From: an uncultured Pseudomonadota bacterium
Lineage (GTDB): Bacteria; Pseudomonadota; Gammaproteobacteria; Competibacterales; Competibacteraceae
NCBI GenBank assembly: GCA_903844665.1
Contig: CAIMUS010000320.1
Location: 1 to 35,707, forward strand
Length of the DNA stretch: 35,707 nucleotides
Direction of reading: 5' to 3'
A program made the position numbers and the translations under genes. This document shows positions 4,969 to 25,649 of the stretch, piece after piece; position 1 is the stretch's first letter; each line of letters starts with the position of its first letter. Below the pieces are notes generated by a model that searched no databases, had not been told where the DNA came from, and was given only the letters and a program-made list of their open reading frames with translations.

Positions 4969-5028
4969 GTTCCGGCCATTGCAGGTGGCGGAGCGTGGTT
5001 TAATCATTGTGATCTCCAGGAGAGTGTG

Positions 5029-12166: not shown

Positions 12167-12535
12167 TTAGCAGTCATTTTCCTCTTCATTTTCTTCTATG
12201 ATTATAGTTTGGAGCTGTGAAGCTACTTGCGGTAGTTCAAGGGCGACAATCTGCCAGACAATATCCAGGTTGACACCGAAGTAATGGTGGATCAGTCGAT
12301 CACGGGTTTCAGCCATACTCTTCCAAGGAATACCCGGATATTCGGCCCGGAGTTGTGTGGATAGGTTCTTGGTGGCTTCACCCAGGATTTCCAGATTGCG
12401 AAGAACAGCATCTTGAGTTTTTGTGTCAGCCACAAACGACTCATATGTCATTCCAGTGCTATAAGCCGTGATCCGGTGAATAGCCTCGCGAATGTCGCTG
12501 AGAAACTCTTGATCTGTTCGCTTAGACATACACAA
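12167..12535 (-). CDS. hepT: HepT-like ribonuclease toxin (DUF86)
   Basis: A 122-residue HEPN-domain RNase toxin. The RX4HXY signature is seen as RDRLIHHYFG; in characterised homologues the motif Tyr is AMPylated by the partner MntA, which silences the RNase. Length is standard. The start overlaps the end of the MntA gene by 14 bp, so the two are coupled. The very acidic tail (IIIEENEEENDC) is unremarkable. First genes of the AT-richer accessory block when viewed from the left. Confidence 0.88.
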   Translation of the reverse strand: MCMSKRTDQEFLSDIREAIHRITAYSTGMTYESFVADTKTQDAVLRNLEILGEATKNLSTQLRAEYPGIPWKSMAETRDRLIHHYFGVNLDIVWQIVALELPQVASQLQTIIIEENEEENDC

Positions 12536-12824
12536 TACTTTCCGTAATATTCTTGGCCACGCGTTTGATTCGGATGTTTTGAATACCCGCTGGCGTCAGT
12601 ACATCTACTTTTTGGCCCAACAAATCTTCCAAGTAGTCAACAAGTTGGAAGAAGCGGAATCCGATTGGGTACCCGAATTCAACAATGATGTCAATATCGC
12701 TGGCCTTGTTAGCCTGCTCTTTGGCGTAAGAACCAAACAAGCCAATCTTGCTAACGCCAAATTTGGCGGCAAGATAAGGCTGTTTCTCTTGTAGCAACTC
12801 GATAATTTTCCTTCTGCTTAGCAT
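12522..12824 (-). CDS. mntA: MntA-like nucleotidyltransferase antitoxin
   Basis: A minimal nucleotidyltransferase of 100 residues. The hallmark GSX10DXD is exact: GS, ten residues (YAKEQANKAS), then DID. In known MntA/HepT pairs this enzyme transfers AMP from ATP onto HepT. An ATG at 12824 is preferred because GAGGT lies just upstream; an upstream start at 12866 would run into an attC-like site. It precedes and overlaps hepT. Confidence 0.88.
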   Translation of the reverse strand: MLSRRKIIELLQEKQPYLAAKFGVSKIGLFGSYAKEQANKASDIDIIVEFGYPIGFRFFQLVDYLEDLLGQKVDVLTPAGIQNIRIKRVAKNITESIVYV

Positions 12825-12830
12825 AACAAC

Positions 12831-12894
12831 CTCTAACGTAGGAGTATATGACTCTGTTTTTTGCACTGGCTACGCTGGCTGGAACGAGTTAAGC
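12831..12894 (-). other. attC-like site (weak)
   Basis: On the minus strand this 64-bp stretch begins with GCTTAAC (12894-12888), matching RYYYAAC, and ends near GTTAGAG (12837-12831), 6 of 7 to GTTRRRY. Size is right for an attC but internal pairing is poor. It would end the DUF4160/DUF2442 cassette. Confidence 0.3.
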
Positions 12895-12895
12895 C

Positions 12896-12930
12896 CGTAG
12901 ATTGGGGTACGTTCCTCACCCCAATCTACG
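12896..12930. repeat. REP-like inverted repeat, left flank of DUF2442/DUF4160
   Basis: Arms CGTAGATTGGGGT (12896-12908) and ACCCCAATCTACG (12918-12930) with a 9-base loop. A second copy in the opposite orientation, differing by a base per arm, is at 13518-13552. Confidence 0.75.
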
Positions 12931-12941
12931 CACTGCGCGCT

Positions 12942-13199
12942 CTATGCCAGCCTCTTCTTTCTCGAAGGTCGATGAACAATCCCCAGCAAGCCGTCGATAG
13001 CAATGTCCTCATCCAGTAGAGGCCAATGGATGCCATACCCGGAGGGAGAAATTTCAAAAATGTTTCTTTCTTCCTCGGATACCGTTGCCAACCGTGAGGA
13101 AACCTTTGCCAGAGAAAAGGTCCTTCGTTCACCATCGATGGTCAGGCAGAGGTTTTCGCCTTCCAGCCAAACATCCGTAACTTGATGATGCTCATTCAT
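12942..13199 (-). CDS. DUF2442 domain protein
   Basis: An 85-residue DUF2442 protein with the family pattern: VTDVWLEGENLCLTIDGER near residues 7-25, then GYGIHWPLLDEDIAIDGLLG near 54-73. DUF2442 and DUF4160 genes are often adjacent and are suspected to be toxin-antitoxin-like modules. The ATG overlaps the DUF4160 stop by 4 bp. The gene itself is intact while its partner has an early stop. Confidence 0.85.
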   Translation of the reverse strand: MNEHHQVTDVWLEGENLCLTIDGERRTFSLAKVSSRLATVSEEERNIFEISPSGYGIHWPLLDEDIAIDGLLGIVHRPSRKKRLA

Positions 13200-13453
13200 T
13201 TCTGTCTCCTCTTCTTAAATTCATCCCATTGTTGCTCGATGTATTCAAAATGTTCGAAGATGATTTTCTTGATCTCTCTTCTATCCTTCGGGTTCAGGTT
13301 ATATGCAAATTCCTCCTCGACATCAAAATTTTCCCGATCCAGCCAGAATTTGCATTCTTTTTCTGCTTTCCGGGCATGCACATGAATAGACTCATTGCCT
13401 TCGTTGGCGTAGAAAAACAGTCGCCAGCCGAGAATTTAGAGAATAGTCGGCAT
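13196..13453 (-). pseudogene. DUF4160 protein with stop at codon 6
   Basis: From an ATG at 13453 the frame reads MPTIL, then TAA (13438-13436), then ILGWRLFFYANEGNESIHVH and on to a normal DUF4160 C terminus. The family typically starts MPTxLxxxGxRFFFY and contains HVHxxK, so the frame is genuine and interrupted only by this stop. One base (AAA to TAA) would explain it. No in-frame ATG restores the core, though a GTG at 13381 could start a truncated product. It overlaps DUF2442 by 4 bp. Confidence 0.75.
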
Positions 13454-13517
13454 AGTTACGCCTCCCACAATCTTGCATAATCGGACCCTCTCCCGCGGGA
13501 GTTCGTAGCCCGTAGCC

Positions 13518-13552
13518 CGTAGGTTGGGGTGAGGAACGAACCCCAACCTACG
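13518..13552. repeat. REP-like inverted repeat, right flank of DUF2442/DUF4160
   Basis: Arms CGTAGGTTGGGGT (13518-13530) and ACCCCAACCTACG (13540-13552), 9-base loop. It overlaps the end of the neighbouring minus-strand gene and supplies its TAG stop (13550-13548). A partial copy (GAGGAACGAACCCCAAC) is at 817-833. Confidence 0.78.
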
Positions 13553-13814
13553 CGCTACGCGCTGGTATTACAGAATGTTCTGAGACGGCAATTAAGATTT
13601 CTTCTCCATCACGTTTCTGTTTTTCGCATCTGACTACAGCGCCAGGCGGAAATTTCCATACTTCGTCTTCAGGGTCATAATCATCTGTAGGGAGCACCCG
13701 AAAGATGCTGGTATCCAGAGCCACACCCTGCGTGGGGCGAAATACAATCGTACCCTCTTCGAGAAGAGGAATATAGATGGTTGACTTAATACTTGAATCC
13801 GTCTCCGCCAACAT
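13548..13814 (-). CDS. Putative immunity protein for E5-like RNase
   Basis: An 88-residue acidic protein with no domain I can name firmly. Features are STIYIPLLEEGTIVFRPTQG (11-30) and FRVLPTDDYDPEDEVWKFPPG (38-58). It directly follows and overlaps (29 bp) the E5-like toxin gene, and a similar small acidic protein often follows such toxins, so an immunity role is inferred. The last residues and the stop lie in a palindromic repeat, so the natural C terminus may have been replaced. Confidence 0.6.
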   Translation of the reverse strand: MLAETDSSIKSTIYIPLLEEGTIVFRPTQGVALDTSIFRVLPTDDYDPEDEVWKFPPGAVVRCEKQKRDGEEILIAVSEHSVIPARSA

Positions 13815-14055
13815 GTATTACCTCGCCTGTCACATTATCTATCACTACGGAACGGCCGGTTTCCGGATGAACGTATCGGGTTGCAGAGTTACCTTTGTTG
13901 ATGAGATTTGGAGCAGGGTTCTTGGCGCCTGCTGCAATAGCTTCGTTTATTTGCTGCTCTGTCCAACCACGCTTGGCCATCTGGCTTTGCCACTTTTCAA
14001 GCGGTTTAAATTCGCCAAGCTTCCACGGTTTCGGTTCGATCATTGTCTCTGCCAT
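13786..14055 (-). CDS. Colicin E5-related ribonuclease domain, orphan toxin module
   Basis: An 89-residue protein resembling the C-terminal toxin tip of CdiA/Rhs-type polymorphic toxins. WTEQQINEAIAAG (31-43), NKGNSATRYVHPETGRSVV (53-71) and VTGEVIHVGGDGFKY (75-89) match the colicin E5-related RNase pattern; E5 cleaves anticodons of certain tRNAs. There is no secretion or delivery region: an in-frame TAA lies three codons before the ATG. It is therefore either a displaced toxin tip or a cassette-borne toxin. Family call is by motif only. A putative immunity gene overlaps its 3' end. Confidence 0.65.
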   Translation of the reverse strand: MAETMIEPKPWKLGEFKPLEKWQSQMAKRGWTEQQINEAIAAGAKNPAPNLINKGNSATRYVHPETGRSVVIDNVTGEVIHVGGDGFKY

Positions 14056-14138
14056 CCGCGTCGCTTAGTCGAAGCTACAGCTATCAACCTTGGCAAGCTG
14101 GCTTTCCTGTAGATTGCTATGGCCGAAACGATGATCAT

Positions 14139-14203
14139 GGCCGGAGGAACCTGGATTGCGCTTCGCAAGCTCCGCTCCATCCAGGCTACGCCGGCTACCC
14201 ATA
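14139..14203. repeat. Dispersed repeat, GGATTGCGCT...GGCTACG family
   Basis: Contains GGATTGCGCTTCGCAAGCTC and ends in AGGCTACGCCGGCTAC. Related copies occur at 14633-14722 and about 15815-15861. It interrupts the attC-like site that follows the small membrane protein at 14212. Confidence 0.6.
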
Positions 14204-14242
14204 AGCCGCACTTAGCGCGTCGGCTTAATGGGCTTGTTATGC
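14198..14242 (-). other. attC-like site, half, interrupted by repeat
   Basis: On the minus strand: GCATAAC core (14242-14236), then CCCATTAAGCCG pairing with CGGCTTATGGG, with one unpaired T as attC hairpins often have. The expected right end is missing because a dispersed repeat begins. The gene at 14212 ends inside it (C-terminal KPIKPTR). Confidence 0.5.
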
Positions 14243-14334
14243 GATGATTTACCAGCATGCCTCAAGGCATCAACCGTAACTACCGCAATGCCACCAATGA
14301 AAACCAGAAAAACGAGAATCAACAACCATTCCAT
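14212..14334 (-). CDS. Single-pass membrane miniprotein
   Basis: Forty residues: MEWLLILVFLVFIGGIAVV forms one membrane helix, followed by a short polar tail ending NKPIKPTR. The ATG overlaps the stop of the upstream two-helix protein (TGATG), with GGAGGAA as ribosome site, so the two are coupled. The last codons come from an attC-like site. No known function. Confidence 0.55.
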   Translation of the reverse strand: MEWLLILVFLVFIGGIAVVTVDALRHAGKSSHNKPIKPTR

Positions 14335-14561
14335 CACAGTTCCTCCAATTCGTCGATTTTTCTGTATGCCGCTCTGTTGACCCAGACGATTCCGGTGGTA
14401 ACAGAGAGCACAGCCAATGCGCATATTACTAATAAAAATATCGGCGCCTTAGTTATATTTTGTGCCAACCAAGCAACCAGAGATATATCGATGGCCACGA
14501 GGATACCGAACACGACCTTTAGCCACCCAATTTCTTCTTTCAGTTTGTCTGTTTTAGACAT
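14334..14561 (-). CDS. Two-helix small membrane protein
   Basis: A 75-residue protein with an N-terminal charged start (MSKTDKLKEEIGWLK) and two membrane helices at about 15-34 and 41-60, then a charged tail (RKIDELEEL). It is coupled by a 1-bp stop/start overlap to the miniprotein at 14212. I recognise it only as a conserved hypothetical; the tightly paired arrangement suggests one functional unit, possibly a toxin-antitoxin or stress pair, which is a guess. Confidence 0.6.
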   Translation of the reverse strand: MSKTDKLKEEIGWLKVVFGILVAIDISLVAWLAQNITKAPIFLLVICALAVLSVTTGIVWVNRAAYRKIDELEEL

Positions 14562-14583
14562 CTTTTTTCCTTATTTGTTTCAC

Positions 14584-14746
14584 GTATAACGGCGGGGCTC
14601 AGCGGCGCGAGTTTACGAGTTTCGCAGTAGTTGTAGCCCGGATGCAGGCCAGAGGCCGGAATCCGGGGTGTGGGGAGGAACCCGGATTGCGCTCCACAAG
14701 CTCCGCTCCATTCCCGGGCTACGCTGGTTGCAACGTCTTGTTAGGC
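14584..14746 (-). other. attC-like site containing a dispersed repeat
   Basis: On the minus strand it starts GCCTAAC (14746-14740), exact to RYYYAAC, and ends GCCGTTATACG (GTTATAC at 14590-14584). Between them lies a dispersed repeat (14633-14722) beginning GTAGCCCGGATGCAGG and ending CCCGGGCTAC on the plus strand. The upstream gene stops 14 bases before the site. Confidence 0.5.
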
Positions 14747-14760
14747 GGAGTACATCGCTA

Positions 14761-15255
14761 TTAGGTCCATGCATAGACGCACAAAGCAATCCAAGGTACA
14801 GTTGTTATCAAAAATCCTGGGACGAGATACCAGTTGATTCCCGTAAAGAAAAGCATACCAAGAATGAGCGTAGCTAGCGCAACTAGCGCCATGAAACGCC
14901 AAACGAGCTTTGCACCAGATAGCCCTCTCGGGTGATTGAGTTTGGTAAAAGACCCGTCTAGCTTGATCAATTCAACTTCCAAACCGATCATGATTTTTCG
15001 GGATCGCGCCATCGTATAGAGCATCACCGTAGTGCCACCGCCGATGATGAGCATTGGAACACCGGCTCCGAATTGTACTTCCAAATCTACTCCCCACTTG
15101 GTTGTATCAACAAGCTTGATTACAGTTACTTTATCCACAAGAAGCGAAACGGCTACGAAGATGGCTCCAAGAATCAGCGAGGGCCATTGAAATTGGGTGC
15201 TATTGTGATGCGTCCAGAGTCCGACGAGCGCTGAGTATTTTTCTTGATCGTTCAT
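14761..15255 (-). CDS. Hypothetical four-helix membrane protein
   Basis: A 164-residue protein with two pairs of hydrophobic segments: about 25-40 and 63-82, then 118-136 and 143-162, separated by a polar loop (ARSRKIMIGLEVELIKLDGS). No family recognised. It occupies a complete cassette between attC-like boundaries at 15289-15295 and 14740-14746. Function unknown. Confidence 0.6.
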   Translation of the reverse strand: MNDQEKYSALVGLWTHHNSTQFQWPSLILGAIFVAVSLLVDKVTVIKLVDTTKWGVDLEVQFGAGVPMLIIGGGTTVMLYTMARSRKIMIGLEVELIKLDGSFTKLNHPRGLSGAKLVWRFMALVALATLILGMLFFTGINWYLVPGFLITTVPWIALCVYAWT

Positions 15256-15288
15256 AGTAGGGCCTTAATTACACACAATCTCCAGAAC

Positions 15289-15528
15289 GCCTAACATGAA
15301 ATAGACACCCTAACTGGTGTCACAAATTACCCCAAAGGTGGCGTCTATTCCAGCCAAGTTGTCAAAAGTGGTTGTTTTGACAATGATTCGGCTTGGTAAA
15401 GACACCCTCTGTGAAAAAGATTTATACACCTTCCAACCATGGTTGACAAGCACCGACTGCTCGCTCAAGTCTGCGAGAAAATCCGACTGAAGCGCGGTAG
15501 CGTGGTCGGCTGCGGCGCTTGGTTAGGC
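15289..15528 (-). other. attC-like site split by an inserted hairpin-rich element
   Basis: On the minus strand: GCCTAAC (15528-15522) followed by CAAGCGCCGCAGCCGACC, and at the far end GTTAGGC (15295-15289), both exact to consensus. The 240-bp spacing is too long for attC. Inside lie GACACC/GGTGTC (15304-15321), AATAGAC/GTCTATT (15300-15349) and TTGTCAAAA/TTTTGACAA (15359-15383), suggesting a small inserted element. Confidence 0.45.
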
Positions 15529-15710
15529 TGCCACATGGATAATCACCTGTCATCACCGCAAAGTTGCTGTCAAACGCTCGCTTTAACCGCCGGTTCATGT
15601 TCTCATCAAGCAGCACGCGCATCGTGTTCCTCGGCCAAGGCAGAATCAAGCGCGATTTCCAGAAACGCCTGCGCCTGTTCCCGGTTTACACTTGGGAATC
15701 CGTCAAGAAA
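15422..15710 (-). pseudogene. Decayed duplicate of the DUF433/DUF5615 module
   Basis: Bases 15487-15710 repeat 16663-17110 closely but lack 224 bp. What is left is the end of a DUF433 gene (up to the shared stop region), the first 25 residues of DUF5615 (MRVLLDENMNRRLKRAFDSN and on), then a jump, out of frame, to the attC-like end. The remaining frame runs to 15422 with unrelated sequence. The pair at 16699-17236 is the intact copy. Confidence 0.8.
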
Positions 15711-15879
15711 TGCGTAAGCTACCAAATAGTATTTAATGGTGGGCTATGCCAATCCTATGAGGTTGATCACAATAACCGCCTTCACTGCCCTCGCAGCTTC
15801 ATACCCCAGTGGGGGAAGAACCCCCGCATTGTGCTCCGCAAACTTCGCTCCAGCCGGGCTACGCTGGCTGCCAAATGTC

Positions 15880-15927
15880 AAAATTCAGCGGCGAGCGAAG
15901 CGAGTCCGCTGGAATGCTGAGTTAGGC
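15880..15927 (-). other. attC-like site ending the PIN/antitoxin cassette
   Basis: On the minus strand: GCCTAAC (15927-15921), then CCAGCGG and CCGCTGA forming a stem (15911-15886) around CTCGCTTCGCTCG. The left core and stem are very typical of attC; the right end is replaced by a dispersed repeat. The antitoxin gene's last 13 codons lie within it. Confidence 0.6.
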
Positions 15928-16091
15928 ATGGGTGGAAATGCAGGTAGCGAAACATATGGATGTCCAGCGGCTATGCGTTCGGCTTCCGACTTCTTCAAGT
16001 CTTCATAAATCGCCCACAGGTCGAAATTGAATTTTGCGGCGTGCGCCTCTCGAATAGCCCGTACTTCATCAATAATTTCATCATTCAGCAT
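15885..16091 (-). CDS. Putative antitoxin of PIN toxin (68 aa)
   Basis: A 68-residue protein starting MLNDEIIDEVRAIREAHAAK with charged helices (DLWAIYEDLKKSEAE), a pattern common in small antitoxins that accompany PIN proteins. It follows the PIN gene with an 11-bp overlap. The C-terminal PNSAFQRTRFARR is read from the attC-like site and is probably not part of the ancestral fold. The partner role is inferred from position. Confidence 0.65.
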   Translation of the reverse strand: MLNDEIIDEVRAIREAHAAKFNFDLWAIYEDLKKSEAERIAAGHPYVSLPAFPPMPNSAFQRTRFARR

Positions 16092-16563
16092 TGTCTTCTC
16101 CTAAAAGTTCTTCAGGGGTACAGATAAATGGCAGAAATAATCCTTTCTGTTCGAGGAATGCCGAGATACCTCTTTGTATCTCGGGATTTGCAATATGTCG
16201 GCAGTTCCAAGTGAGCAGGTAGTCCACGCCATAAACCGTTGCAATAGCGATATGCAGTGCATCCTCTGCGGCCTTGGCTGGAACAATCCCATTTTCCACT
16301 AATTCCGAAGCGATGTTGACGGCATTCTCATCAATCAAAAGTAAGGGTAGATCAGCCAATACCGCCAGCCGCCTTTGTGCGGCAATTGGATCACCTGCAG
16401 CACATTCTCGCATGACTGATTCTGATATAAGCAATTCATATCGGTGGCGGGATTCCCACCAAGCCAGAGTAATCTGCTGGTGGGCGGCACCAAGAATTGT
16501 CTTGCTTGGACGAGCCGTCAGATAGCTAATGACAGAGGTTTCAACATAGACCTTGCGTTTCAT
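16081..16563 (-). CDS. PIN-domain ribonuclease toxin
   Basis: A 160-residue PIN-fold protein, likely an RNase toxin. The N terminus is VYVETSVISYL, with Glu at the place of the usual first Asp, as in one PIN subgroup. EDALHIAIATVYGVDYLLTWNCRHI (about 99-123) carries the central and C-terminal acidic residues. The ATG at 16563 begins a typical start. The small gene downstream is the likely antitoxin. The order toxin-first is less usual but known for this subgroup. Confidence 0.8.
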   Translation of the reverse strand: MKRKVYVETSVISYLTARPSKTILGAAHQQITLAWWESRHRYELLISESVMRECAAGDPIAAQRRLAVLADLPLLLIDENAVNIASELVENGIVPAKAAEDALHIAIATVYGVDYLLTWNCRHIANPEIQRGISAFLEQKGLFLPFICTPEELLGEDNAE

Positions 16564-16627
16564 CTGGATAACCTAATTACGAAATAGCGTAGCGTATTTA
16601 GCCGCGTGGGCGCCACCGAATCCATCC

Positions 16628-16660
16628 GGCGCATTACGCTACGCTAATGCGCCCTACGCG
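16628..16660. repeat. Dispersed repeat GGCGCATTACG...AATGCGCC
   Basis: An inverted repeat with GGCGCATTA and TAATGCGCC arms around CGCTACGC, followed by CTACGCGG. The same repeat occurs at about 358-402. It truncates the right end of the neighbouring attC-like site. Confidence 0.7.
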
Positions 16661-16662
16661 GG

Positions 16663-16704
16663 CTGAAGTGCGGTAGTGCGGTCGGCTGCAGCGCTTGGTT
16701 AGGC
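16663..16704 (-). other. attC-like site ending the DUF5615 cassette
   Basis: On the minus strand: GCCTAAC (16704-16698) then CAAGCGCTGCAGCCGACC, the left half of a typical attC. The DUF5615 stop codon TAA is inside the core. The right half is cut by a dispersed repeat. The duplicate at 15522 has the same sequence with a few changes. Confidence 0.5.
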
Positions 16705-17022
16705 TGCCACATGGATAACCACTCCCGCCTGCATCGTTTTCAATATCTTATTTATTTCCGGCACCGCCGGTGCGACGTCCTGGCGGCGGTTGCTTCGTGC
16801 AGAGACAATTATGATACCAAGCTTAATCCCGCTGAAATTCTGCTGATACTCAATACTTTTGTCCATGGTGACCAAGGCGTCAAACTCTGCTTCCGCTAAA
16901 CGTAGCAGTTCCCCATTTCTTTTACCGCTCCACCCACGCTCGGTAACTGTCATCACCGCAAAGTCGCTGTCAAGCGCTCGCTTTAACCGCCGGTCCATGT
17001 TCTCATCAAGCAGCACGCGCAT
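16699..17022 (-). CDS. DUF5615 PIN-like protein, likely toxin
   Basis: A 107-residue DUF5615 (PIN-like) protein. LLDENMDRRL (4-13) has the first acidic residues, DALVTMDKS (48-56) the second, and the C-terminal part continues with IIIVSAR. It overlaps the DUF433 gene by 17 bp; DUF433/DUF5615 pairs are regarded as likely toxin-antitoxin modules. The stop codon lies in an attC core. A decayed second copy is 1.2 kb away. Confidence 0.85.
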   Translation of the reverse strand: MRVLLDENMDRRLKRALDSDFAVMTVTERGWSGKRNGELLRLAEAEFDALVTMDKSIEYQQNFSGIKLGIIIVSARSNRRQDVAPAVPEINKILKTMQAGVVIHVAA

Positions 17023-17236
17023 CGTGTTCCTCGGCTAAGGCAGAATCAAGGGCGATTTCCAGAAACGCTTGCGCCTGTTCCCGGCTTACACTTGGGAATC
17101 CGTCAAGAAAATCGTCAAGGCCGTCTCCTGCTTTAAGGTAATCAATAAGCGTTTGAACTGGTACTCGGGTACCTGTAAAAACAGGAGTACCGCCGAGAAT
17201 ATCAGGATCCCGATTGATAATTTGCTCTCGCTTCAT
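17006..17236 (-). CDS. DUF433 protein, likely antitoxin
   Basis: A 76-residue DUF433 protein: DPDILGGTPVFTGTRVPVQT (10-29) is the family hallmark, followed by LDDFLDGFPSVSREQAQAFL. The ATG at 17236 is chosen because GGAGGTG lies 6-7 bases upstream. DUF433 has a winged-helix-like fold suited to DNA binding and autoregulation. Overlaps its DUF5615 partner. Confidence 0.87.
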   Translation of the reverse strand: MKREQIINRDPDILGGTPVFTGTRVPVQTLIDYLKAGDGLDDFLDGFPSVSREQAQAFLEIALDSALAEEHDARAA

Positions 17237-17333
17237 AAAATTCACCTCCGGAAAGTAGAACATCTCTCTGCCGTCCAGCTCACCAATTATATGGGACCAA
17301 TCGGATAAGGTGGACTATGCCCACTTTACCGGA

Positions 17334-17638: not shown

Positions 17639-17670
17639 CAAAAATCCCTCCCCCTGAGCGAAGGGGAGGG
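17639..17670 (-). terminator. Intrinsic terminator of the EMC operon
   Basis: Read on the minus strand: CCCTCCCC, loop TTCGCTCAG, GGGGAGGG, then ATTTTTG. An 8-bp GC-rich stem followed by five T residues about 50 bp past the ccr stop is a standard intrinsic terminator. Confidence 0.75.
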
Positions 17671-17718: not shown

Positions 17719-19497
17719 TTATTTGGTCTTGAAGAACAGCTTGCGGACCACGTCGGTCATCGACAGGATGCCGACCGGGGCGCCGTTCTCCATGGCCACC
17801 AGGCGATGGATATGGCGGCCCGCCATCTGACTGATGGCTTTGGTCAAAGTGTCATTGACATCGCAGGTGGCGTAGCCCAGGGTCATCACCGCGCGGGTGT
17901 TGAGATGCCGCGCTTCCTCGGCCGTCTTGCCCTGCCGCGCCAGCGCCATGTCGGTCTGGCTGACCACGCCGATGGGCTGGCCTTCATCCATCACGATCAC
18001 CGAGTGAATCTTGTTATCGACCATGATCTGGGCCACGGACTCCAGGGTATCGGTGGGCTTGCAGGAGATCACACCCCGGTGCATCAGATCCTTGACCAGC
18101 GTGCCGTCGTCCTGAACGACCAACTCCAGGTCATCCAGATGTTGCGAGAAGTAATCCGGCGCTGGTTCCAACGGCATATCGATGGCGACCGTCGTGGGTG
18201 TGGTATGGGTATCGTTCGGTGCAATCGCTACGTGCCCGACCGCGCGCGGTGCACTTTCGGTGATGCCCTGACCGAACTCGGTGGCGCCGATCAGAATCGA
18301 CATATTGCCATGCGGATGCTTGTTCTGGTACATCAATTGATGCGCCATCGGCAACTCTTCGCAGGTAAAGGTGCGCGACAGGCAGGGATCGACCAGCCCT
18401 TGCAGCACCAGCCGGTTTACGCCATCGGCCTGCTCGTCGTTGGCGAAGTGTGAACCCTGCAGCCGTTTCTGCCGCATCCACAGATAGCGCAGATCGACGG
18501 TGGCGTTGTAGCCGGTGGTGCCGGCGCAAACGACGACCATGCCGCCGGTGTCGCAGACGAAGATCGAGGTGGGAATGGTGGATTCGCCCGGATGCTCGAA
18601 GACGATGCGGGGGCTGCGCTTGTCGCCCAGCACCTCCCAGATCGCCGCGCCGAACTTGCGCACGCCCTTCAACCAAGTGGCGTAGCCGGCGTTGTCCTTC
18701 CAGTGCGGCAGCATGCCCCAGTGGTCGAACTCACCGCGCATGATGCAGCCCTTGGCGCCCAGGCTTTCGCAATAGGCCCGCTTGTCTTCGCTGGAGATCA
18801 CGGAAATGGGGGTCGCGCCCAGGGCGCGGCAGATCTGAATGGCCATCGATCCCAGCCCGCCGGCGCCGCCCCAGATCAGCGTCACATCGCCTTTCTGCAC
18901 GGCATGCGTGCCCCAGCCACACAGCATCCGGTAAGCGGTCGCGCCGACCAGCATATAGGCCGCGGACGCTTCCCAGCTCAGATGCTCCGGCTTGGGCAGA
19001 CACTGGTGCGCCTGCACTTTGGTGAACTGGGCGAAGCTGCCCCAGTTGGTCTCGTAACCCCAGATGCGGAAGGAGGGCGAGTACATCGGATCGTTGCCGG
19101 CCTTGACCCAGGCACAATCCCGGTTCCAGGTACCGCAATGAATCACCACTTCATCGCCCACCCGGACATTGGTCACGTCCTTGCCCACTTTGTAGACGAT
19201 GCCAGAGGCGTCGCTGCCGCCGATGTGGAAGCGCTCCGGTTCGCCCTGCTTGTTGCGGGCGCCGATCACATCGACCGGAATGCCCAGCGCCGCCCAGACG
19301 TTGTTATAGTTGACGCCCGCCGCCATCACATAGACCAGTACTTCGTCATCGGCGATCGGGGGCACATCCATCACTTCCAACTGGAAGGCGTCGTTGGGTT
19401 CGCCGAAGCGCTCAGGCCGGATCAGCCAGGCGTGCATCTTCGGCGGCACTTCACCGAGCGGGGGGGCTTCGCCCATATCATACAGTTCTTTTGCCAT
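17719..19497 (-). CDS. ccr: Crotonyl-CoA carboxylase/reductase fused to a CBS-domain pair
   Basis: Ccr reductively carboxylates crotonyl-CoA to ethylmalonyl-CoA with NADPH and CO2, the key step of the ethylmalonyl-CoA pathway. Residues 1-410 are a complete Ccr: [12 protein letters not shown] (61-72, with the Asn of the CO2 pocket known from other Ccr), WGYET (146-150, with its Glu), [11 protein letters not shown] (209-219, NADPH fold) and LQGSHFAN (346-353, with the pocket His). Classical Ccr proteins end near 430 residues. Here an Ala/Pro/Thr-rich linker (about 412-466) leads to two CBS motifs, 468-525 ([40 protein letters not shown]) and 533-590 ([40 protein letters not shown]). CBS pairs usually bind adenine nucleotides. 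The ATG at 19497 follows GGAG by 7 bases; an earlier TTG is less likely. Last gene of the operon. Confidence 0.96.
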
Positions 19498-19567: not shown

Positions 19568-19645
19568 GTAGGGTGCGTTTTACGCACCATAAACGTGCCG
19601 TGCTTGGCACACACACGGGTGTGTGGTGCGTGGAACGCACCCTAC
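19568..19645. repeat. Inverted repeat GTAGGGTGCGTT...AACGCACCCTAC
   Basis: Exact 12-bp arms (19568-19579, 19634-19645) with an inner GCACACACACGGGTGTGTGG palindrome. Typical intergenic dispersed repeat. Its right arm merges into the 7-bp tandem array. Confidence 0.75.
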
Positions 19646-19739
19646 GCCTTACGCCTTACGCCTTACGCCTTACGCCTTACGCCTTACGCCTTACGCCTTA
19701 CGCCTTACGCCTTACGCCTTACGCCTTACGCCTTACGCC
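19644..19739. repeat. Thirteen tandem copies of ACGCCTT
   Basis: Thirteen perfect 7-bp units (19644-19734) plus a partial ACGCC, ending one base before the meaB stop codon. Perfect short tandem repeats of this length are prone to slippage. The array lies between meaB and ccr in the same operon, so copy number would change the intercistronic distance, not a reading frame. Confidence 0.95.
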
Positions 19740-19740
19740 A

Positions 19741-20739
19741 TTAGGTTGTGCGTTTCCAGTTCGCGAGAAACTGGTCGCGGAGGGAATCGTAGAGATCGAA
19801 CGGGGAACCCTGGCGCTGCGTCAGAGACTCGAACAACAGGGGTTCCCCACCCAGTTGCTCGATGCCGAAACGGCCGAATTCCTCCCGCAGGCGCTTGAGA
19901 ATCCATTCCCCCTGAAAGCGCTTACGCCGGGTGGCCAGCAGTTGGTGCTCGGTCAGCCAGCGGCGGTGGCTGTCGATGACATCCGCCAGTTTTTCGATAC
20001 CGCTGCCGGTGGTGGCGCTGACCGAGAGAGCCGGGACCTGCCAGCCGTCCGGGTCGATCTGCTTCTTCAAGGTCGTGCGCAGTTCCGTCAGCGTCTTACG
20101 GGCGGCGGCCCCCATATCCTCCTTGTTGACGACCAGGATGTGTGGGACTTCCATGATGCCCGCCTTGAGAAACTGAATGCTGTCGCCGGAGGCCGGCTGG
20201 GCCACGAAACAGGTGGTGTCGGACATCTTGGAAATGTCGATTTCCTTCTGTCCCACCCCCACGGTTTCGATCAGGACGATATCGAAGGCCGCCAGCATGG
20301 CCAGACTCATCGGCCAGACCTCGGCGCTCAAGCCGCCGAATTCACCCCGGCAGGCCAGGGAGCGGATAAACACATTGCTGCCGCCCTGATCGTGCGCCAG
20401 CATTCGCAGCCGGTCGCCCAGCAGGGCGCCGCCGCTCAGGGGACTGGACGGGTCCACCGCCAGAATCCCGACCGCCAACTGGCGCCGCCGCCAGACTTCG
20501 ATCAGGGCCGAGGTCAACGAGGATTTGCCGGCGCCGGGCGGACCGGTGATGCCGATCAGATGCCCGGCGGTGTTGAGTCTTTCACCGGGCAGGGTGGCGA
20601 GAAAGCGCGACGCTGCGCGGCGCGCCTGAGGACGTTTGTCGTCCAGCAGATTGAGAGACCGGGCGAGGGCCGCCCGGTCGCGGGCCGCCACGGCGGCGGC
20701 CAGCGCCTCCGGGTCGGGCAGTGCATGGCGGGCCAGCAT
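19741..20739 (-). CDS. meaB: Mutase-associated GTPase MeaB
   Basis: G3E-type GTPase that loads and protects the B12 cofactor of acyl-CoA mutases. The 332-residue protein has Walker A GPPGAGKS (66-73), the switch segment DPSSPLSGGALLGDR (96-110), ETVGVGQ (158-164) and the guanine-specificity motif NKED (205-208). The ATG overlaps the ecm stop (TGATG), so it is coupled to the mutase it serves. Its stop abuts the 7-bp repeat array. Confidence 0.95.
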   Translation of the reverse strand: MLARHALPDPEALAAAVAARDRAALARSLNLLDDKRPQARRAASRFLATLPGERLNTAGHLIGITGPPGAGKSSLTSALIEVWRRRQLAVGILAVDPSSPLSGGALLGDRLRMLAHDQGGSNVFIRSLACRGEFGGLSAEVWPMSLAMLAAFDIVLIETVGVGQKEIDISKMSDTTCFVAQPASGDSIQFLKAGIMEVPHILVVNKEDMGAAARKTLTELRTTLKKQIDPDGWQVPALSVSATTGSGIEKLADVIDSHRRWLTEHQLLATRRKRFQGEWILKRLREEFGRFGIEQLGGEPLLFESLTQRQGSPFDLYDSLRDQFLANWKRTT

Positions 20740-22745
20740 CAGGCCGCCTTCTGTTCGAACGGTTGCAGGCCGTTGGATTGACGGATGATGTCCACCAGAT
20801 CGAGCATGATGGTGTTCATGTCGATGTTCTTGGGCGTATAGACGGCGGCCACGCCCTGGGAGAGCAATACCCGCTCGTCTTCCACGGGGATGATGCCGCC
20901 GACGATCACCGGAATATCGGCCAGACCCGCCTTGCCCAGTTCCTTGAAGATCTCGTCCGCCAGTTCCAGATGGCTGCCGGACAGCACCGACAGGCCGATC
21001 AGATGGACGCCTTCCTCCAGCGCCGCCTTGGCGATCTGTTGCGGGGTCAGGCGGATGCCTTCATAGACGATCTCGAAGCCGACATCGCGGGCCTTGACGG
21101 CGATCTGCTCGGCGCCGTTGCTGTGGCCGTCCAGTCCCGGCTTGCCGACCAGGATGCGCAACGGCCGGCCCAGTTCCTCGCCGGTGCTTCGTACCCGCTC
21201 GCGCACCAGCTTGACGATAGCGCTGGGAGACTCCTCCTGTAGGCTGATGTCGATGCCGGTCGGCGGGCGATACTCGCCGAATACATCACGCAGCACCTGC
21301 GACCACTCGCCGGTGGTGACGCCGGCATGGGCGCAGCGGATGGAGGCCGGCATGATGTTTTCCCCGGTCTTGGCCACCGCGGCCAGGTTGGCCAGGGCGG
21401 CGTTGACCTCGGCCTGATTGCGTTGCGCCTTGAAGGCGTTCAGCCGTTCGATCTGTTCCCGCTCGGCGTTGGGATCGACCTTCATGATGCTGCTTTCGCC
21501 TTCGCTGACCAGCGGCGAGGGCGCGGTTTCCTTGTAGCAGTTGAGGCCGACGATTTGCAGATCGCCACGCTCGATGGCGCGCATCCGTTCGGTGTGGCTG
21601 GTAACCAGTTGGCGCTTGACATAACCGGTCTCGATGGCCGGAATCATGCCGCCGTTCTCCTGCACTCGCGCCATTTCCTCTTCGGCGCCCTTGATCAGGG
21701 CGTCCACCTTGGCCTGAATTACCATCGAGCCGTCGAAGATATCGCCGTATTCCAACAGATCGGTCTCGAAGGCCAGCACCTGCTGCATCCGCAAGGCCCA
21801 TTGCTGGTCCCAGGGACGCGGCAGGCCCAGCGCCTCGTTCCAGGCCGGCAACTGAACCGCCCGGGCGCGGGCGTTTTTGGACAGAGACACGGCCAGCATT
21901 TCCAGCACGATGCGCTGGACATTGTTTTCCGGCTGGGATTCGGTCAACCCCAGGGAGTTGACCTGCACCCCGTAACGGAACCGGCGCATTTTCTCGTCCT
22001 GCACGCCGTAGCGTTCCCGGGTGATCTTGTCCCACAACTCCACGAAGGCCCGCATCTTGCAGCATTCTTCCACGAAGCGGATGCCGGCGTTGACGAAGAA
22101 GGAGATACGGCCCACCACCTGCTCGAAGTCTTCCGGATTGACCTGGCCGGATTCCTTCACGGCGTCCAGCACCGTAATGGCGGTGGACAGGGCATAGGCC
22201 AGTTCCTGCACCGGGGTGGCGCCCGCTTCCTGCAGATGGTAACTACAGATGTTGGTGGGATTCCATTTGGGAATGTTCTTGACCGTATAACAGATGATAT
22301 CGGTAATCAGCCGGATCGACGGCCCCGGTGGATAGATATAGGTGCCGCGCGACAGGTATTCCTTGATGATGTCGTTCTGGGTGGTGCCCTCCAGTTGCAC
22401 CGGGGTGAACCCCTGCCGTTCGGCGACGGCGACATACAACGACAGCAGCCAGGCGGCCGTGGCGTTGATCGTCATGGAGGTGTTCATCTTCCCCAGGGGA
22501 ATCTGCTCGAACAGGGTCTCCATGTCGCCGATATTACCGATGGGCACTCCCACCTTGCCCACTTCGCCGCGGGCCAGTGGGTGGTCGGAATCATAACCGG
22601 TCTGGGTCGGCAGGTCGAAAGCCACCGACAGACCGGTCTGGCCCTTGGCCAGATTGGTGCGGTACAGTTCATTGGATACCCTGGCCGAGGCGTAGCCGGA
22701 ATAGGTCCGCATCAACCAGGGTTTATCGCGTTTCGTTTTTTCCAC
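20739..22745 (-). CDS. ecm: Ethylmalonyl-CoA mutase (MeaA-type, B12-dependent)
   Basis: Rearranges ethylmalonyl-CoA to methylsuccinyl-CoA with adenosylcobalamin. A single 668-residue chain holds the catalytic barrel (RTYSGYASARVSNELYRTN, about 14-32; LPTQTGYDSDHPLARGEVG, about 45-63) and a C-terminal B12 domain with LDGHSNG (538-544), SVLSG and VGG. The length and context (ccr, mcd, mch, meaB) favour Ecm over methylmalonyl-CoA mutase. The GTG start has AGGAGA 6 bases upstream. Coupled to meaB by a stop/start overlap. Confidence 0.93.
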   Translation of the reverse strand: MEKTKRDKPWLMRTYSGYASARVSNELYRTNLAKGQTGLSVAFDLPTQTGYDSDHPLARGEVGKVGVPIGNIGDMETLFEQIPLGKMNTSMTINATAAWLLSLYVAVAERQGFTPVQLEGTTQNDIIKEYLSRGTYIYPPGPSIRLITDIICYTVKNIPKWNPTNICSYHLQEAGATPVQELAYALSTAITVLDAVKESGQVNPEDFEQVVGRISFFVNAGIRFVEECCKMRAFVELWDKITRERYGVQDEKMRRFRYGVQVNSLGLTESQPENNVQRIVLEMLAVSLSKNARARAVQLPAWNEALGLPRPWDQQWALRMQQVLAFETDLLEYGDIFDGSMVIQAKVDALIKGAEEEMARVQENGGMIPAIETGYVKRQLVTSHTERMRAIERGDLQIVGLNCYKETAPSPLVSEGESSIMKVDPNAEREQIERLNAFKAQRNQAEVNAALANLAAVAKTGENIMPASIRCAHAGVTTGEWSQVLRDVFGEYRPPTGIDISLQEESPSAIVKLVRERVRSTGEELGRPLRILVGKPGLDGHSNGAEQIAVKARDVGFEIVYEGIRLTPQQIAKAALEEGVHLIGLSVLSGSHLELADEIFKELGKAGLADIPVIVGGIIPVEDERVLLSQGVAAVYTPKNIDMNTIMLDLVDIIRQSNGLQPFEQKAA

Positions 22746-22766: not shown

Positions 22767-23933
22767 TCAGGTCCGGCGCTTGATCAGCAGCCGGCGCTCG
22801 ATTTCGAAAATCTTATCGCCGATCTTGTCCTTCCCCAGTCCCTGCTTGTCGTTTTCCTTGATAAACAGATCGGCGCCGTGTTTTTCCAGGGCATTGGCCG
22901 CGCTGATATTCTTGACGCCGATGAACTGGAAGGTGACGATTCCCGCCGGATCGCTGTCCGGCAGCGACTCCACCGCCAGCACCCGCGACAGTCCCGCGAC
23001 GGTATCGCCCGAGATCGAAGGCTGGGTGTGATAGCCCTCGGTAAAGCCCAGTTCCCACAGGGCGTTTTCGCTGACATCGCGGCTCGCCAGTCCTTCCAGC
23101 CAGGCGAACACCAAGCCGCCGTAGACGATCGGCTCGCCGCTCATCTTGCCGGACAGCCCCTGGCTGTAGACCCGGTCGTAGTGCAACGGATGGGTGTTGC
23201 AGACCTTATAGGTCAGCGCTACATGCTCGTCGGTGATGGTGCGACCGTTGGCGTGAACGATGATGTCGCCCGGCGTATAGTCCTCGAAATAGGTGTTCGG
23301 ACCGGTGAGATGGGTGGGAAAGGCGCCCGTCACGGGCAAGTCCAGTGTCGGCTCGTCGACCCAGGGAAAATCCACCGGCTCGTCGGGCGCCGGGGTGGTG
23401 GGCGGCCGCTGGCCGCGCCAAGACACCATGATCTTGCGCTCGTATTGCAACACCACCCGATCGTGCTGATTGACGCCCAGGGTGCGGATCAGCACGATGC
23501 CGGGCTTGTCGGCGCCGCGTTCCTTGCGGTCGATCACCTTGGTGTAGGCGCGCACGGTGTCGCCCGGATAGACCGGGCGCAGGAACTGGGCGTTGTAATA
23601 ACCCAGGTTGGCGATGGCCTTCTCGGAGTCGTTTTGTACGCCCAGCGACAGCACTACGTTGAACACCATCTGTGGGCTGGCGGGCAGATCCGCAAAGCCG
23701 TGCGTCTTGGCGAAGTCGGTGTTCAGATACAGGGGATTGGTCTGCATGAAGGTGCGGGCGAAGTCCAGCATCGCCGCCCGCTCGAAGCTGAATCCCCGTG
23801 GATGGATGAACACCTGACCCGGTACGAACTCATCGAGATAGCGCCCGTATTGGGGCGCGCGCGCCCGCTCCAGCGAGACGGGCACTGTTCCGGCCAGTTC
23901 CTGTTGTGGAGTGAAAGCCAGAGATAGGGCCAT
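22767..23933 (-). CDS. mch: Mesaconyl-CoA hydratase (double hot-dog MaoC protein)
   Basis: Hydrates mesaconyl-C1-CoA to beta-methylmalyl-CoA in the EMC pathway. The 388-residue protein has two MaoC-like hot-dog halves; the second carries TITDEHVALTYKVCNTHPLHYD (about 238-259) with the typical hydratase His/Asp region, followed by YGGLVFAWLEG. It is somewhat longer than some known homologues. The ATG lies 3 bases after the mcd stop, and the last mcd codons contain the GGAGG ribosome site, so it is translationally coupled. Confidence 0.9.
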   Translation of the reverse strand: MALSLAFTPQQELAGTVPVSLERARAPQYGRYLDEFVPGQVFIHPRGFSFERAAMLDFARTFMQTNPLYLNTDFAKTHGFADLPASPQMVFNVVLSLGVQNDSEKAIANLGYYNAQFLRPVYPGDTVRAYTKVIDRKERGADKPGIVLIRTLGVNQHDRVVLQYERKIMVSWRGQRPPTTPAPDEPVDFPWVDEPTLDLPVTGAFPTHLTGPNTYFEDYTPGDIIVHANGRTITDEHVALTYKVCNTHPLHYDRVYSQGLSGKMSGEPIVYGGLVFAWLEGLASRDVSENALWELGFTEGYHTQPSISGDTVAGLSRVLAVESLPDSDPAGIVTFQFIGVKNISAANALEKHGADLFIKENDKQGLGKDKIGDKIFEIERRLLIKRRT

Positions 23934-23936
23934 AAC

Positions 23937-25649
23937 TTATACCTCCAGCGCCTGCTTGTCTTTGGCGCTTTTGGCCAGGGCCGGCGCGACGACCTTCAGC
24001 GCGAGCGTCTCTTCGGCGCCTTCGAAGATCGACAGCACGCGGGCGTCGATGAAATAGCGGCTGACCGGGGTTTCTTCGGCATAGCCCATGCCGCCGTGAA
24101 TCTGCAAGGCCTCGCGGGTGATCCATTCGGCGGTCTTGCAGGTGAAGAGTTTCACCATGCTGGCTTCCATATCGCCCTTGCCCTGATCCATCAGCCGTCC
24201 GACCGCGTAGGTGAACTGCCGGCTGGCCACCAGATAGGTCGCCATCCGCGCCAGCTTGACCTGGGTCAACTGGTAATCGGCGATCGGCTTGCCGAACACC
24301 ACGCGATCCTTGGCGTAGGACACAGCGCGTTCGAACGCGGCCTGCATGACGCCGATGGCGCGGGCGGCGGTCTGGATCCGGCCACCGGAGAAACCGGCCA
24401 TGGTGAAGTAAAAGCCTTTGCCCAGCCCGTCGGGACCGCCCAGCAGATTCTCGTCAGGGATGAAGAAGTCGTCGAAGAACAGGTCGAACGAATGCATGCC
24501 GCGGTAGCCGATGGTGGAGATGGCCTTGGCGCTCAGGTTGCCGCCGCCTTCCTGCTTGTACTCGAAGGCATGGCCGTCGTAACTCGGTTTCTCCGCCAGG
24601 AACATGGACAGGCCGCGATGGCCCAGCGACAGATCGGGATTGGTGCGGGCCAGTATCAGCAGCACGCCGGCCTTGCCGCCGAAGGTGCACCAGGTCTTGG
24701 CGCCGTTCAGCAGCCAGCCGCCCTCGGTCTTGGTGGCCTTGAGCCGCATATTGGCCACGTCGGAGCCGTAGTTGGGTTCGGTGACAGCCACCGCGCAGAG
24801 CGGATCGCCGACCGCGAGTTGCGGCAGCCACTTCTGTTTCTGTTCCTCGGTGCCGCCCTTGAGCAGGGCGCGGGCCAGAATCTCCGGCCGGGTGATCAGG
24901 CTGCCGGCGGCGCCCAGCGAACCCCGCGACAGTTCCTCGGTCACCACGATCATGCCCATGTTGTCTTCCTGCTCGTCGTCCTGCAGACCGCCGTACTGTT
25001 GCGGAATCGACAGGCCGAAGCAGCCCAGGTCCTTGACGTTTTCCAGGATCTCGTCGGGGATGATCAGGTCTTTCTGATGGACTTCCTTGGCCAGCGGCAT
25101 GACCACGTCGTTGGCGAAGCGGCGAAACTGCTCGCGCATCATTTCATGATGGTCGTCCAGCAGATAGGCGCCGGTCTGGCCGTCCAGGGCGCAGACGGCT
25201 TTGCCCAGATCGGCGATGCTCTGGGCGGCGAGTTGGGCGGTGCAGAACTGTTGCACCACCCCGCTTTCCAGCAGCGTCGCCAGTTTGCCCCGGCTGATGC
25301 CGAAATCGTCCGGCCGGGCGGACAGGCGGGCGCGGATGGAGTTGATGGCTTCGGCGGTGAACAGCAGGGCGAAGCGTTCCTCCAGGGTGGGGGCGGGATA
25401 GGAGCCGCCTACCGCTTCGCGGGCCTTCGCCGCATAGTCGAGGGCGAAGCGGGCGGCGTTGGCTTCCGCCGTGCAAAACGCCGCGTCATAGGCCACCAGT
25501 TGATATTGATCGATCTTGGTTGATGAAATCTGGCCGTTTTCGGTGGTCCGTTCCTTGAGGCTGGCCAGTACAATATCGACGGTTTTTTGCGCGGCTTCCA
25601 GCGCCTGTCCAGCCTGCCGTATAAGATCCCCTGCCTGATTTTCGGACAT
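23937..25649 (-). CDS. mcd: Methylsuccinyl-CoA dehydrogenase
   Basis: FAD-dependent oxidation of methylsuccinyl-CoA to mesaconyl-C1-CoA. At 570 residues it is longer than ordinary acyl-CoA dehydrogenases; the extra 150 or so N-terminal residues are typical of Mcd. Motifs are VTEPNYGSD (289-297), KTWCTFGGKAG, QIHGGMGYAEE (516-526) and a C-terminal IFEGAEE (541-547). First gene of the EMC operon; the start has GGGGG upstream. Assignment rests on length and operon context as well as family. Confidence 0.93.
   Translation of the reverse strand: MSENQAGDLIRQAGQALEAAQKTVDIVLASLKERTTENGQISSTKIDQYQLVAYDAAFCTAEANAARFALDYAAKAREAVGGSYPAPTLEERFALLFTAEAINSIRARLSARPDDFGISRGKLATLLESGVVQQFCTAQLAAQSIADLGKAVCALDGQTGAYLLDDHHEMMREQFRRFANDVVMPLAKEVHQKDLIIPDEILENVKDLGCFGLSIPQQYGGLQDDEQEDNMGMIVVTEELSRGSLGAAGSLITRPEILARALLKGGTEEQKQKWLPQLAVGDPLCAVAVTEPNYGSDVANMRLKATKTEGGWLLNGAKTWCTFGGKAGVLLILARTNPDLSLGHRGLSMFLAEKPSYDGHAFEYKQEGGGNLSAKAISTIGYRGMHSFDLFFDDFFIPDENLLGGPDGLGKGFYFTMAGFSGGRIQTAARAIGVMQAAFERAVSYAKDRVVFGKPIADYQLTQVKLARMATYLVASRQFTYAVGRLMDQGKGDMEASMVKLFTCKTAEWITREALQIHGGMGYAEETPVSRYFIDARVLSIFEGAEETLALKVVAPALAKSAKDKQALEV

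Follow-up and report, generated by a model that had tools for sequence, protein, structure and literature searches.

Does a crotonyl-CoA carboxylase/reductase (Ccr) that runs on, in a single reading frame, into a pair of CBS domains represent a genuine enzyme architecture, and what might the added module contribute to carboxylation? The question is raised by a gene in a stretch of 35,707 nucleotides (hereafter, the window) from an uncultured gammaproteobacterium of the Competibacteraceae, a relative of glycogen-storing bacteria known from wastewater. It makes up contig C320 of a draft genome in 348 contigs (4.88 Mb, 98.9% complete). A sequence-only reading of this DNA had reported, at 17719-19497, one 592-codon frame made of Ccr, a linker and two CBS motifs, and had proposed that adenylates control crotonyl-CoA carboxylation in this organism. 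The interval and the frame were right, and both Pfam and TIGR01751 agree with them; the strand, which had been left unstated, is minus, and a plus-strand reading of 17719-19497 contains a stop.

The ccr-CBS gene and its ethylmalonyl-CoA cluster

The features of the locus are collected in Table 1. Pfam assigns ADH_N (residues 50-171), ADH_zinc_N (214-360) and two CBS stretches to the protein, the best CBS stretch being residues 468-520 (80.6 bits against a PF00571 cut-off of 24). The NCBIfam model TIGR01751 (crot-CoA-red), whose cut-off is 378.55, scores 561.1 bits, its match covering residues 22-417 of a frame that starts four codons before the ATG. A GGAG sequence lies upstream of the ATG at 19497, the stop ends at 17719, and the protein ends right after the second CBS domain, with no ACT domain.

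Table 1. Coordinates of the ccr-CBS gene, its parts, its neighbours and other features of the window
Feature	Coordinates	Strand	Basis or remarks
Whole ccr-CBS gene	17719..19497	-	592 codons + stop, ATG at 19497
Ccr domain, residues 1-411	18265..19497	-	TIGR01751, PDB relatives, KsCcr residues, conservation counts
Pro-rich linker, residues 412-467	18097..18264	-	alignment; similar linker in CBS-less L087
CBS domain 1, residues ~468-525	17923..18096	-	PF00571, model, counts; H498, S513, T515, D516
CBS domain 2, residues ~533-590	17728..17901	-	Pfam, model, counts; H564, R565, S579, T581, D582
G+C-rich hairpin, then T run, just 3' of the ccr stop	17641..17670	-	by eye
MeaB-family GTPase, upstream neighbour	19741..20739	-	PF03308 232.4 bits; TIGR00750 238.9, just below cut-off 240.75
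Acyl-CoA mutase with B12 domain (Ecm by context)	20739..22745	-	PF01642, PF02310; TIGR00641, TIGR00640
Mesaconyl-CoA hydratase-like protein (Mch)	22767..23933	-	PF19315 92.9 bits, cut-off 26.5
Acyl-CoA dehydrogenase, long N-terminal extension (Mcd by context)	23937..25649	-	Pfam Acyl-CoA_dh domains
HepT/nucleotidyltransferase pair	12167-12866		
DUF4160 frame	13196-13381		
Second, degenerate-looking DUF5615-like start	15422-15649		by eye, no Pfam match
DUF5615/DUF433 pair	16699-17263		

The closest solved relatives of the catalytic part by sequence are AntE 4y0k, 9kva and 4gi2. In KsCcr, according to the accessible part of PMC10966969, N81, F170, E171 and H365 hold the CO2; these residues align with N63, Y148, E149 and H350 of the window protein. 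Among 64 fused Ccr sequences, N63 is present in 63 (one gap), Y148 in 64, E149 in 63 (one Asp) and H350 in 64. Tyrosine occupies the position of KsCcr F170 in all 136 Ccr sequences compared (64 fused and 72 unfused), and 7 of the 72 unfused sequences have Gln, and 3 have Asp, where the window protein has E149. Classical Ccr enzymes (TIGR01751; KsCcr 6owe, M. extorquens 4gi2, AntE 4y0k) have the catalytic domain, CO2-pocket residues and ethylmalonyl-CoA neighbours in common with the window protein. The difference lies in the tail: the ten Ccr-type PDB sequences each give one matched stretch that ends at the Ccr domain, and their 410-467 residues leave no room for a CBS pair.

The gene order is mcd-mch-ecm-meaB-ccr, all on one strand, with ccr as the last gene of the ethylmalonyl-CoA cluster and the hairpin behind it as the probable terminator. 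The upstream neighbours are of the kinds expected for the Ecm, Mch and Mcd steps of the pathway. For Ecm and Mcd the name is context-based, because the matched mutase and dehydrogenase models do not separate the types, and no NCBIfam equivalog cut-off is reached by the dehydrogenase. The same order recurs in Competibacteraceae and Accumulibacter loci of sufficient length. The CBS-less Oleiphilus group (L091, L093 and L095) likewise has mcd, ecm and meaB ahead of ccr, and a match to mch is absent from these three loci. The window protein is, judging by motifs and neighbours, a complete and probably active Ccr of an ethylmalonyl-CoA cluster, fused to a CBS pair.

The window genome holds one Ccr copy and three HpcH/HpaI-type lyase candidates above cut-off. 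Isocitrate lyase was not detected in it by a search that was positive in 8 of 14 control genomes. Given this negative result in a 98.9% complete genome, Ccr is probably its main C2 entry, and we infer that the ethylmalonyl-CoA pathway is probably the organism's acetyl-CoA route for growth.

Several other features of the window were recorded. Between meaB and ccr, at 19643-19739, a seven-base unit is repeated in tandem without mismatch (13.9 copies, 100% match). Its four-unit pattern occurs at this one site in the window genome, and the repeat might make the distance ahead of ccr variable. At gathering scores, Rfam matched nothing in the window. A transketolase gene is split over two plus-strand frames (5026-7026; 408 and 256 aa) that jointly span the domains of the family, which is a frameshift or sequence error. 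The region 12167-17263 is without large genes and carries toxin-antitoxin-like pairs.

Distribution and history of the fusion

That the window is a single contig of a 348-contig draft leaves room for the fusion to be an assembly chimera or the product of a frameshift. The family comparison makes this extremely improbable. Of the 37 Competibacteraceae genomes examined (the window's own included), 18, spanning 8 genus codes, carry a full-length fusion; 5 others hold broken or contig-edge pieces, and 14 are without a Ccr-level match. The relatives' full-length copies are 67-71% identical to the window protein from residue ~5 to ~592, which rules out chance and chimera. Among 22 other relatives examined, none gave a Ccr-level match. 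A second collection, partly overlapping the first, contained 211 stretches matching a search pattern. A relative is encoded in 193 of them, and the 80 top-ranked ones were retained, which gave 79 loci. One open frame of more than 540 residues is present in 52 of the 79, a proportion that is no frequency because the hits were ranked against the fused query. The CBS profile found 54 CBS-pair segments in those 52 loci, PF00571 matched 32 of 32 aligned fusions, and one fusion lies on a complete Defluviicoccus chromosome (CP058705).

Neither of the findings that the sequence-only reading had named as fatal to its proposal, a frameshift or chimera at the linker and a separate CBS gene in close relatives, was borne out: many assemblies carry an intact frame, and the 37 Competibacteraceae genomes yielded no separate CBS gene. 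Two candidates for such a gene were rejected. G033:C290 is a C-terminal match at a contig end with no room for the Ccr part, and G010:C170 is a broken-frame copy, also at a contig end. L089 is a broken-frame copy that holds CBS sequence, and the Ccr match of L090 runs to the contig end, so that any tail would lie beyond the contig. No complete stand-alone Ccr was found in the 37 genomes. The Ccr-CBS architecture is real and conserved.

Two full fused ccr genes occur in each of four Competibacteraceae genomes, on one contig in L174 and on two contigs each in G011, G021 and G026. One copy lies beside pathway genes and the other is without adjoining pathway genes; the two copies possibly differ in control.

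The fusion extends well beyond the single organism to which the sequence-only reading had confined it, occurring in Accumulibacter, Propionivibrio, Defluviicoccus, Rhodospirillales, Myxococcota, Actinomycetota and Chloroflexota. Six surveys were run with the whole protein as query at E 1e-60. Ccr was present in 4 of 369 genomes of Gammaproteobacteria (3 fused), 89 of 289 of Alphaproteobacteria (2 fused), 12 of 251 of Chloroflexota (1 fused), 27 of 188 of Myxococcota (3 fused), 3 of 121 of the Accumulibacter family (3 fused) and 104 of 346 of Actinomycetota (1 fused). Five survey centres had been chosen as fused and the sixth was the window's own genome; with all six left out, 7 of 233 Ccr-bearing genomes are fused, a count in which fused status follows from the extent of the query match, so that a strongly diverged CBS tail could escape notice, and in which a few rows, being pieces at contig edges, permit no call (e.g. 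G1086, G422). The fusion is rare overall. All complete Ccr proteins found in the Competibacteraceae and the Accumulibacter family nevertheless carry it.

Some individual loci deserve mention. Two Chloroflexota Ccr genes, L081:5257-7530 and L082:6974-9259, carry two tandem CBS pairs; L081 shows four CBS stretches in Pfam, and the second pair of L082, found by profile, is cut by the contig end. One Myxococcota genome (G1130, locus L150) holds both a fused and a CBS-less Ccr and so offers a natural test pair. The fusion at L058 comes from a metagenome-assembled genome named Kineosporiaceae, yet the tree places it with the Competibacteraceae copies, and it may therefore be misbinned.

To follow the history of the fusion, a tree of 91 Ccr domains was built with the CBS part left out (a quick tree, without bootstrap). 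The sample derives from 120 rows, from which 29 (16 with CBS, 13 without) had been dropped as near-duplicates, as one fragment or in thinning well-sampled groups. All 37 fused representatives fall within one Ccr clade of 44 (SH-aLRT 98), and none of the 47 rows outside that clade is fused. Seven of the 44 clade members are without the CBS part, which is thus dispensable in those seven. The tree requires 4 changes between the fused and CBS-less labels, at least 3 of them forced by starred branches, and a single clean origin, with the fused rows alone as a clade, was rejected (AU p 0.0009). Because the fused rows are not a clade, one gain followed by losses, or several gains, remain. The simplest reading of the tree is one old fusion that spread between phyla and was lost a few times; repeated gain of the CBS part is also compatible with it. 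Ccr and CBS distances among the 37 fused representatives are correlated (r 0.864; none of 2000 permutations as high), which indicates that both parts travel together.

The CBS-less members of the clade were inspected individually. L087:7001-8356 encodes a CBS-less Ccr that retains a linker of the fusion type and then meets a stop, and no CBS sequence was found in three frames in the next ~700 bases. A linker ending in a stop suggests loss of the CBS part, and L087 is likely a relic of such a loss. For L094, whose match extends past the stop, neither a three-frame reading nor the CBS profile revealed a CBS domain. A profile hit at L091 was rejected as a CBS-GGDEF protein 1.6 kb downstream, a protein of another kind; the CBS profile gave no other hit across these seven loci.

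The CBS pair and its putative ligand sites

A model of the CBS pair was built from an alignment of 42 CBS-pair segments and reached a pLDDT of 90.9. A full-length AlphaFold model, based on 32 rather close sequences, had a mean pLDDT of 53.8, with the Ccr part poor. By VIA-align, two solved structures tie as nearest to the CBS-pair model: NE2398 (2rc3, Z 18.6) and AcuB with AMP and ADP (9s4v, Z 18.4; rmsd 2.0 Å over 126 aligned residues). The window CBS pair also matches AMPK gamma at profile level (E 2e-17).

The [ST]xx[DN] motif is widespread among CBS domains, and H564-R-L together with S579..D582 of the window protein presumably corresponds to the HRL..SxxD pattern of AMPK gamma. In AcuB, the accessible portion of PMC13121692 reports, the ribose-holding residues are Asp52 and Asp122, and His34 forms a bridge between the alpha-phosphates. 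D516, D582 and H498 of the window protein occupy these positions, a correspondence drawn from spacing (His34 to Asp52, 18 residues) and aligned ranges rather than from coordinate superposition. Across 65 CBS pairs, drawn from 63 distinct proteins of which many are closely related, D516 is conserved in 65, D582 in 64 (one gap), H498 in 63, H564 in 65 and R565 in 64. AcuB Arg33 and Arg51 correspond by spacing to Ile497 and Thr515. Because these two arginines are not kept, the putative phosphate pocket differs from that of AcuB; other basic residues, H564 and R565, are present. The CBS fold and the two ribose-type sites together indicate an adenosine compound, and AMP, ADP or ATP would be the likeliest putative ligand as judged from residues and model.

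Known regulated systems offer partial parallels. AMPK gamma, whose CBS modules the window protein shares, has four CBS repeats and is a separate subunit of a kinase. IMP dehydrogenase and CBS-pyrophosphatase are metabolic enzymes with internal CBS regulation; their catalytic domains are unrelated to Ccr, and their module is an insert or lies elsewhere instead of forming a C-terminal tail. In cyanobacteria, the CBS-CP12 protein has a CBS pair tied to the control of CO2 fixation (structure 5nvd, Z 16.7 against the CBS model), whereas this regulatory protein is unfused to the carboxylase. Built-in Bateman regulation of IMP dehydrogenase is described in the consulted part of PMC11303537. AcuB, according to the accessible portion of PMC13121692, is the energy-charge sensor of acetyl-CoA synthesis in Bacilli; it shares with the window protein the CBS-pair fold, the positions of the ribose-holding Asp and bridging His, and a role at acetate assimilation. 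It differs in being a stand-alone adaptor with a C-terminal ACT domain that acts on acetyl-CoA synthetase via the deacetylase AcuC, while the window CBS pair is fused to the enzyme itself.

A possible energy gate on carboxylation

We consider it just on the probable side of even that the window encodes an ethylmalonyl-CoA-pathway Ccr whose covalent C-terminal Bateman module, predicted from sequence and model to bind adenine nucleotides, gates carboxylation by energy charge. The CBS pairs of neighbouring subunits would pair, and adenine nucleotides (AMP or ADP versus ATP) would occupy two sites per chain. Nucleotide loading would alter how the subunits hold together and would shift the open/closed cycling of the Ccr oligomer, which would set the rate of reductive crotonyl-CoA carboxylation. 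In this way, energy charge would gate the flow from the acetoacetyl-, 3-hydroxybutyryl- and crotonyl-CoA pool into the ethylmalonyl-CoA pathway, with its C4 compounds, glyoxylate and propionyl-CoA for PHV. By analogy with AcuB, high AMP might be expected to inhibit Ccr, the direction being a guess.

CBS pairs dimerise, and if such a dimer, attached to the C-termini of Ccr, changed with nucleotide loading, it could speed or slow active-site closing, because KsCcr has open and closed subunits and because oligomeric state is linked to activity in the family. AcuB forms a dimer (PMC13121692, accessible portion), KsCcr is a dimer of dimers with both kinds of subunit (PMC10966969, likewise in part), and the oligomeric state of Ccr-family enzymes varies (PMC12632816, in the part consulted). 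Furthermore, an energy gate at Ccr would make sense because acetyl-CoA, NADPH, PHA and growth meet there and because the hosts cycle between anaerobic feeding and aerobic growth.

The module might instead sense another adenosyl compound or an ion, such as SAM/MTA, Ap4A, c-di-AMP, NAD(P)H, a CoA ester or Mg-ATP, in which case Ccr would follow C1, stress or redox state. MTA/SAM-bound 3kpc (Z 18.0), Ap4A-bound 9s4y (Z 17.3), c-di-AMP-bound DarB 8ad6 (Z 16.6) and Mg-ATP-bound CNNM 7msu (Z 16.5) all match the CBS model well, and the pathway itself uses CoA esters and NADPH. The matches to the AcuB ribose Asp and bridging His, together with the AMPK gamma profile, favour plain adenylates, and we regard a different ligand as unlikely, if a serious contender. 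A purely structural module, which would stabilise or link Ccr oligomers or dock a partner with no ligand sensing, seems to us quite improbable. The dimerisation of CBS pairs and the variable, activity-linked oligomeric state of Ccr speak for it, as does the top PDB profile match of the CBS pair, a ribosome-bound CBS protein (9zni). A scaffold would not, however, need putative ligand sites that are near-invariant (63-65 of 65) where the commonest residue of the median CBS column reaches 80%, and the CBS part is missing from some members of the clade.

If the energy-gating reading holds, it bears on bacteria in which the pathway is already under discussion. The pathway has been proposed to supply propionyl-CoA for PHV in Contendobacter, and propionyl-CoA and redox balance in the anaerobic phase in Accumulibacter (PMC8956781 and PMC12604563, in their accessible parts); in Defluviicoccus, including strain SSA4, it is reported complete (PMC9041414, likewise). 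Storage polymer set against assimilation, the picture drawn by the sequence-only reading, is therefore too simple, because Ccr can also feed PHV storage. In the main texts of these three papers, as far as they were accessible, CBS is not mentioned, and in the part of PMC2948502 consulted, allosteric regulation is left out of account. A full-text search of non-subscription papers returned no description of a Ccr with a CBS domain, in line with the earlier statement that none was known, and the architecture is apparently undescribed.

A broader proposition is held more tentatively, at somewhat less than even: that a distinct, horizontally spread Ccr lineage with its own energy-charge sensor sets the flux from 3-hydroxybutyryl- and crotonyl-CoA into ethylmalonyl-CoA. 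It would have been kept by unrelated polyphosphate and glycogen accumulators (Accumulibacter, Propionivibrio, Competibacter, Contendobacter and Defluviicoccus) since the anaerobic/aerobic cycle swings ATP, PHA and redox state. To our knowledge, a sensor-bearing Ccr would, if true, be the first allosterically controlled enoyl-CoA carboxylase/reductase. Enzymes of this kind are used in synthetic carbon fixation, and an evolved, switchable carboxylase would then be on offer for engineering. They have been called the fastest CO2-fixing enzymes (PMC12632816, in the part consulted). The fusion is carried by bacteria well known from biological phosphorus removal and by their competitors, where the ethylmalonyl-CoA route is debated as a source of propionyl-CoA, PHV and redox balance; if the proposed gate is true, the energy state of the cell may switch the carbon-fixing step of that route directly.
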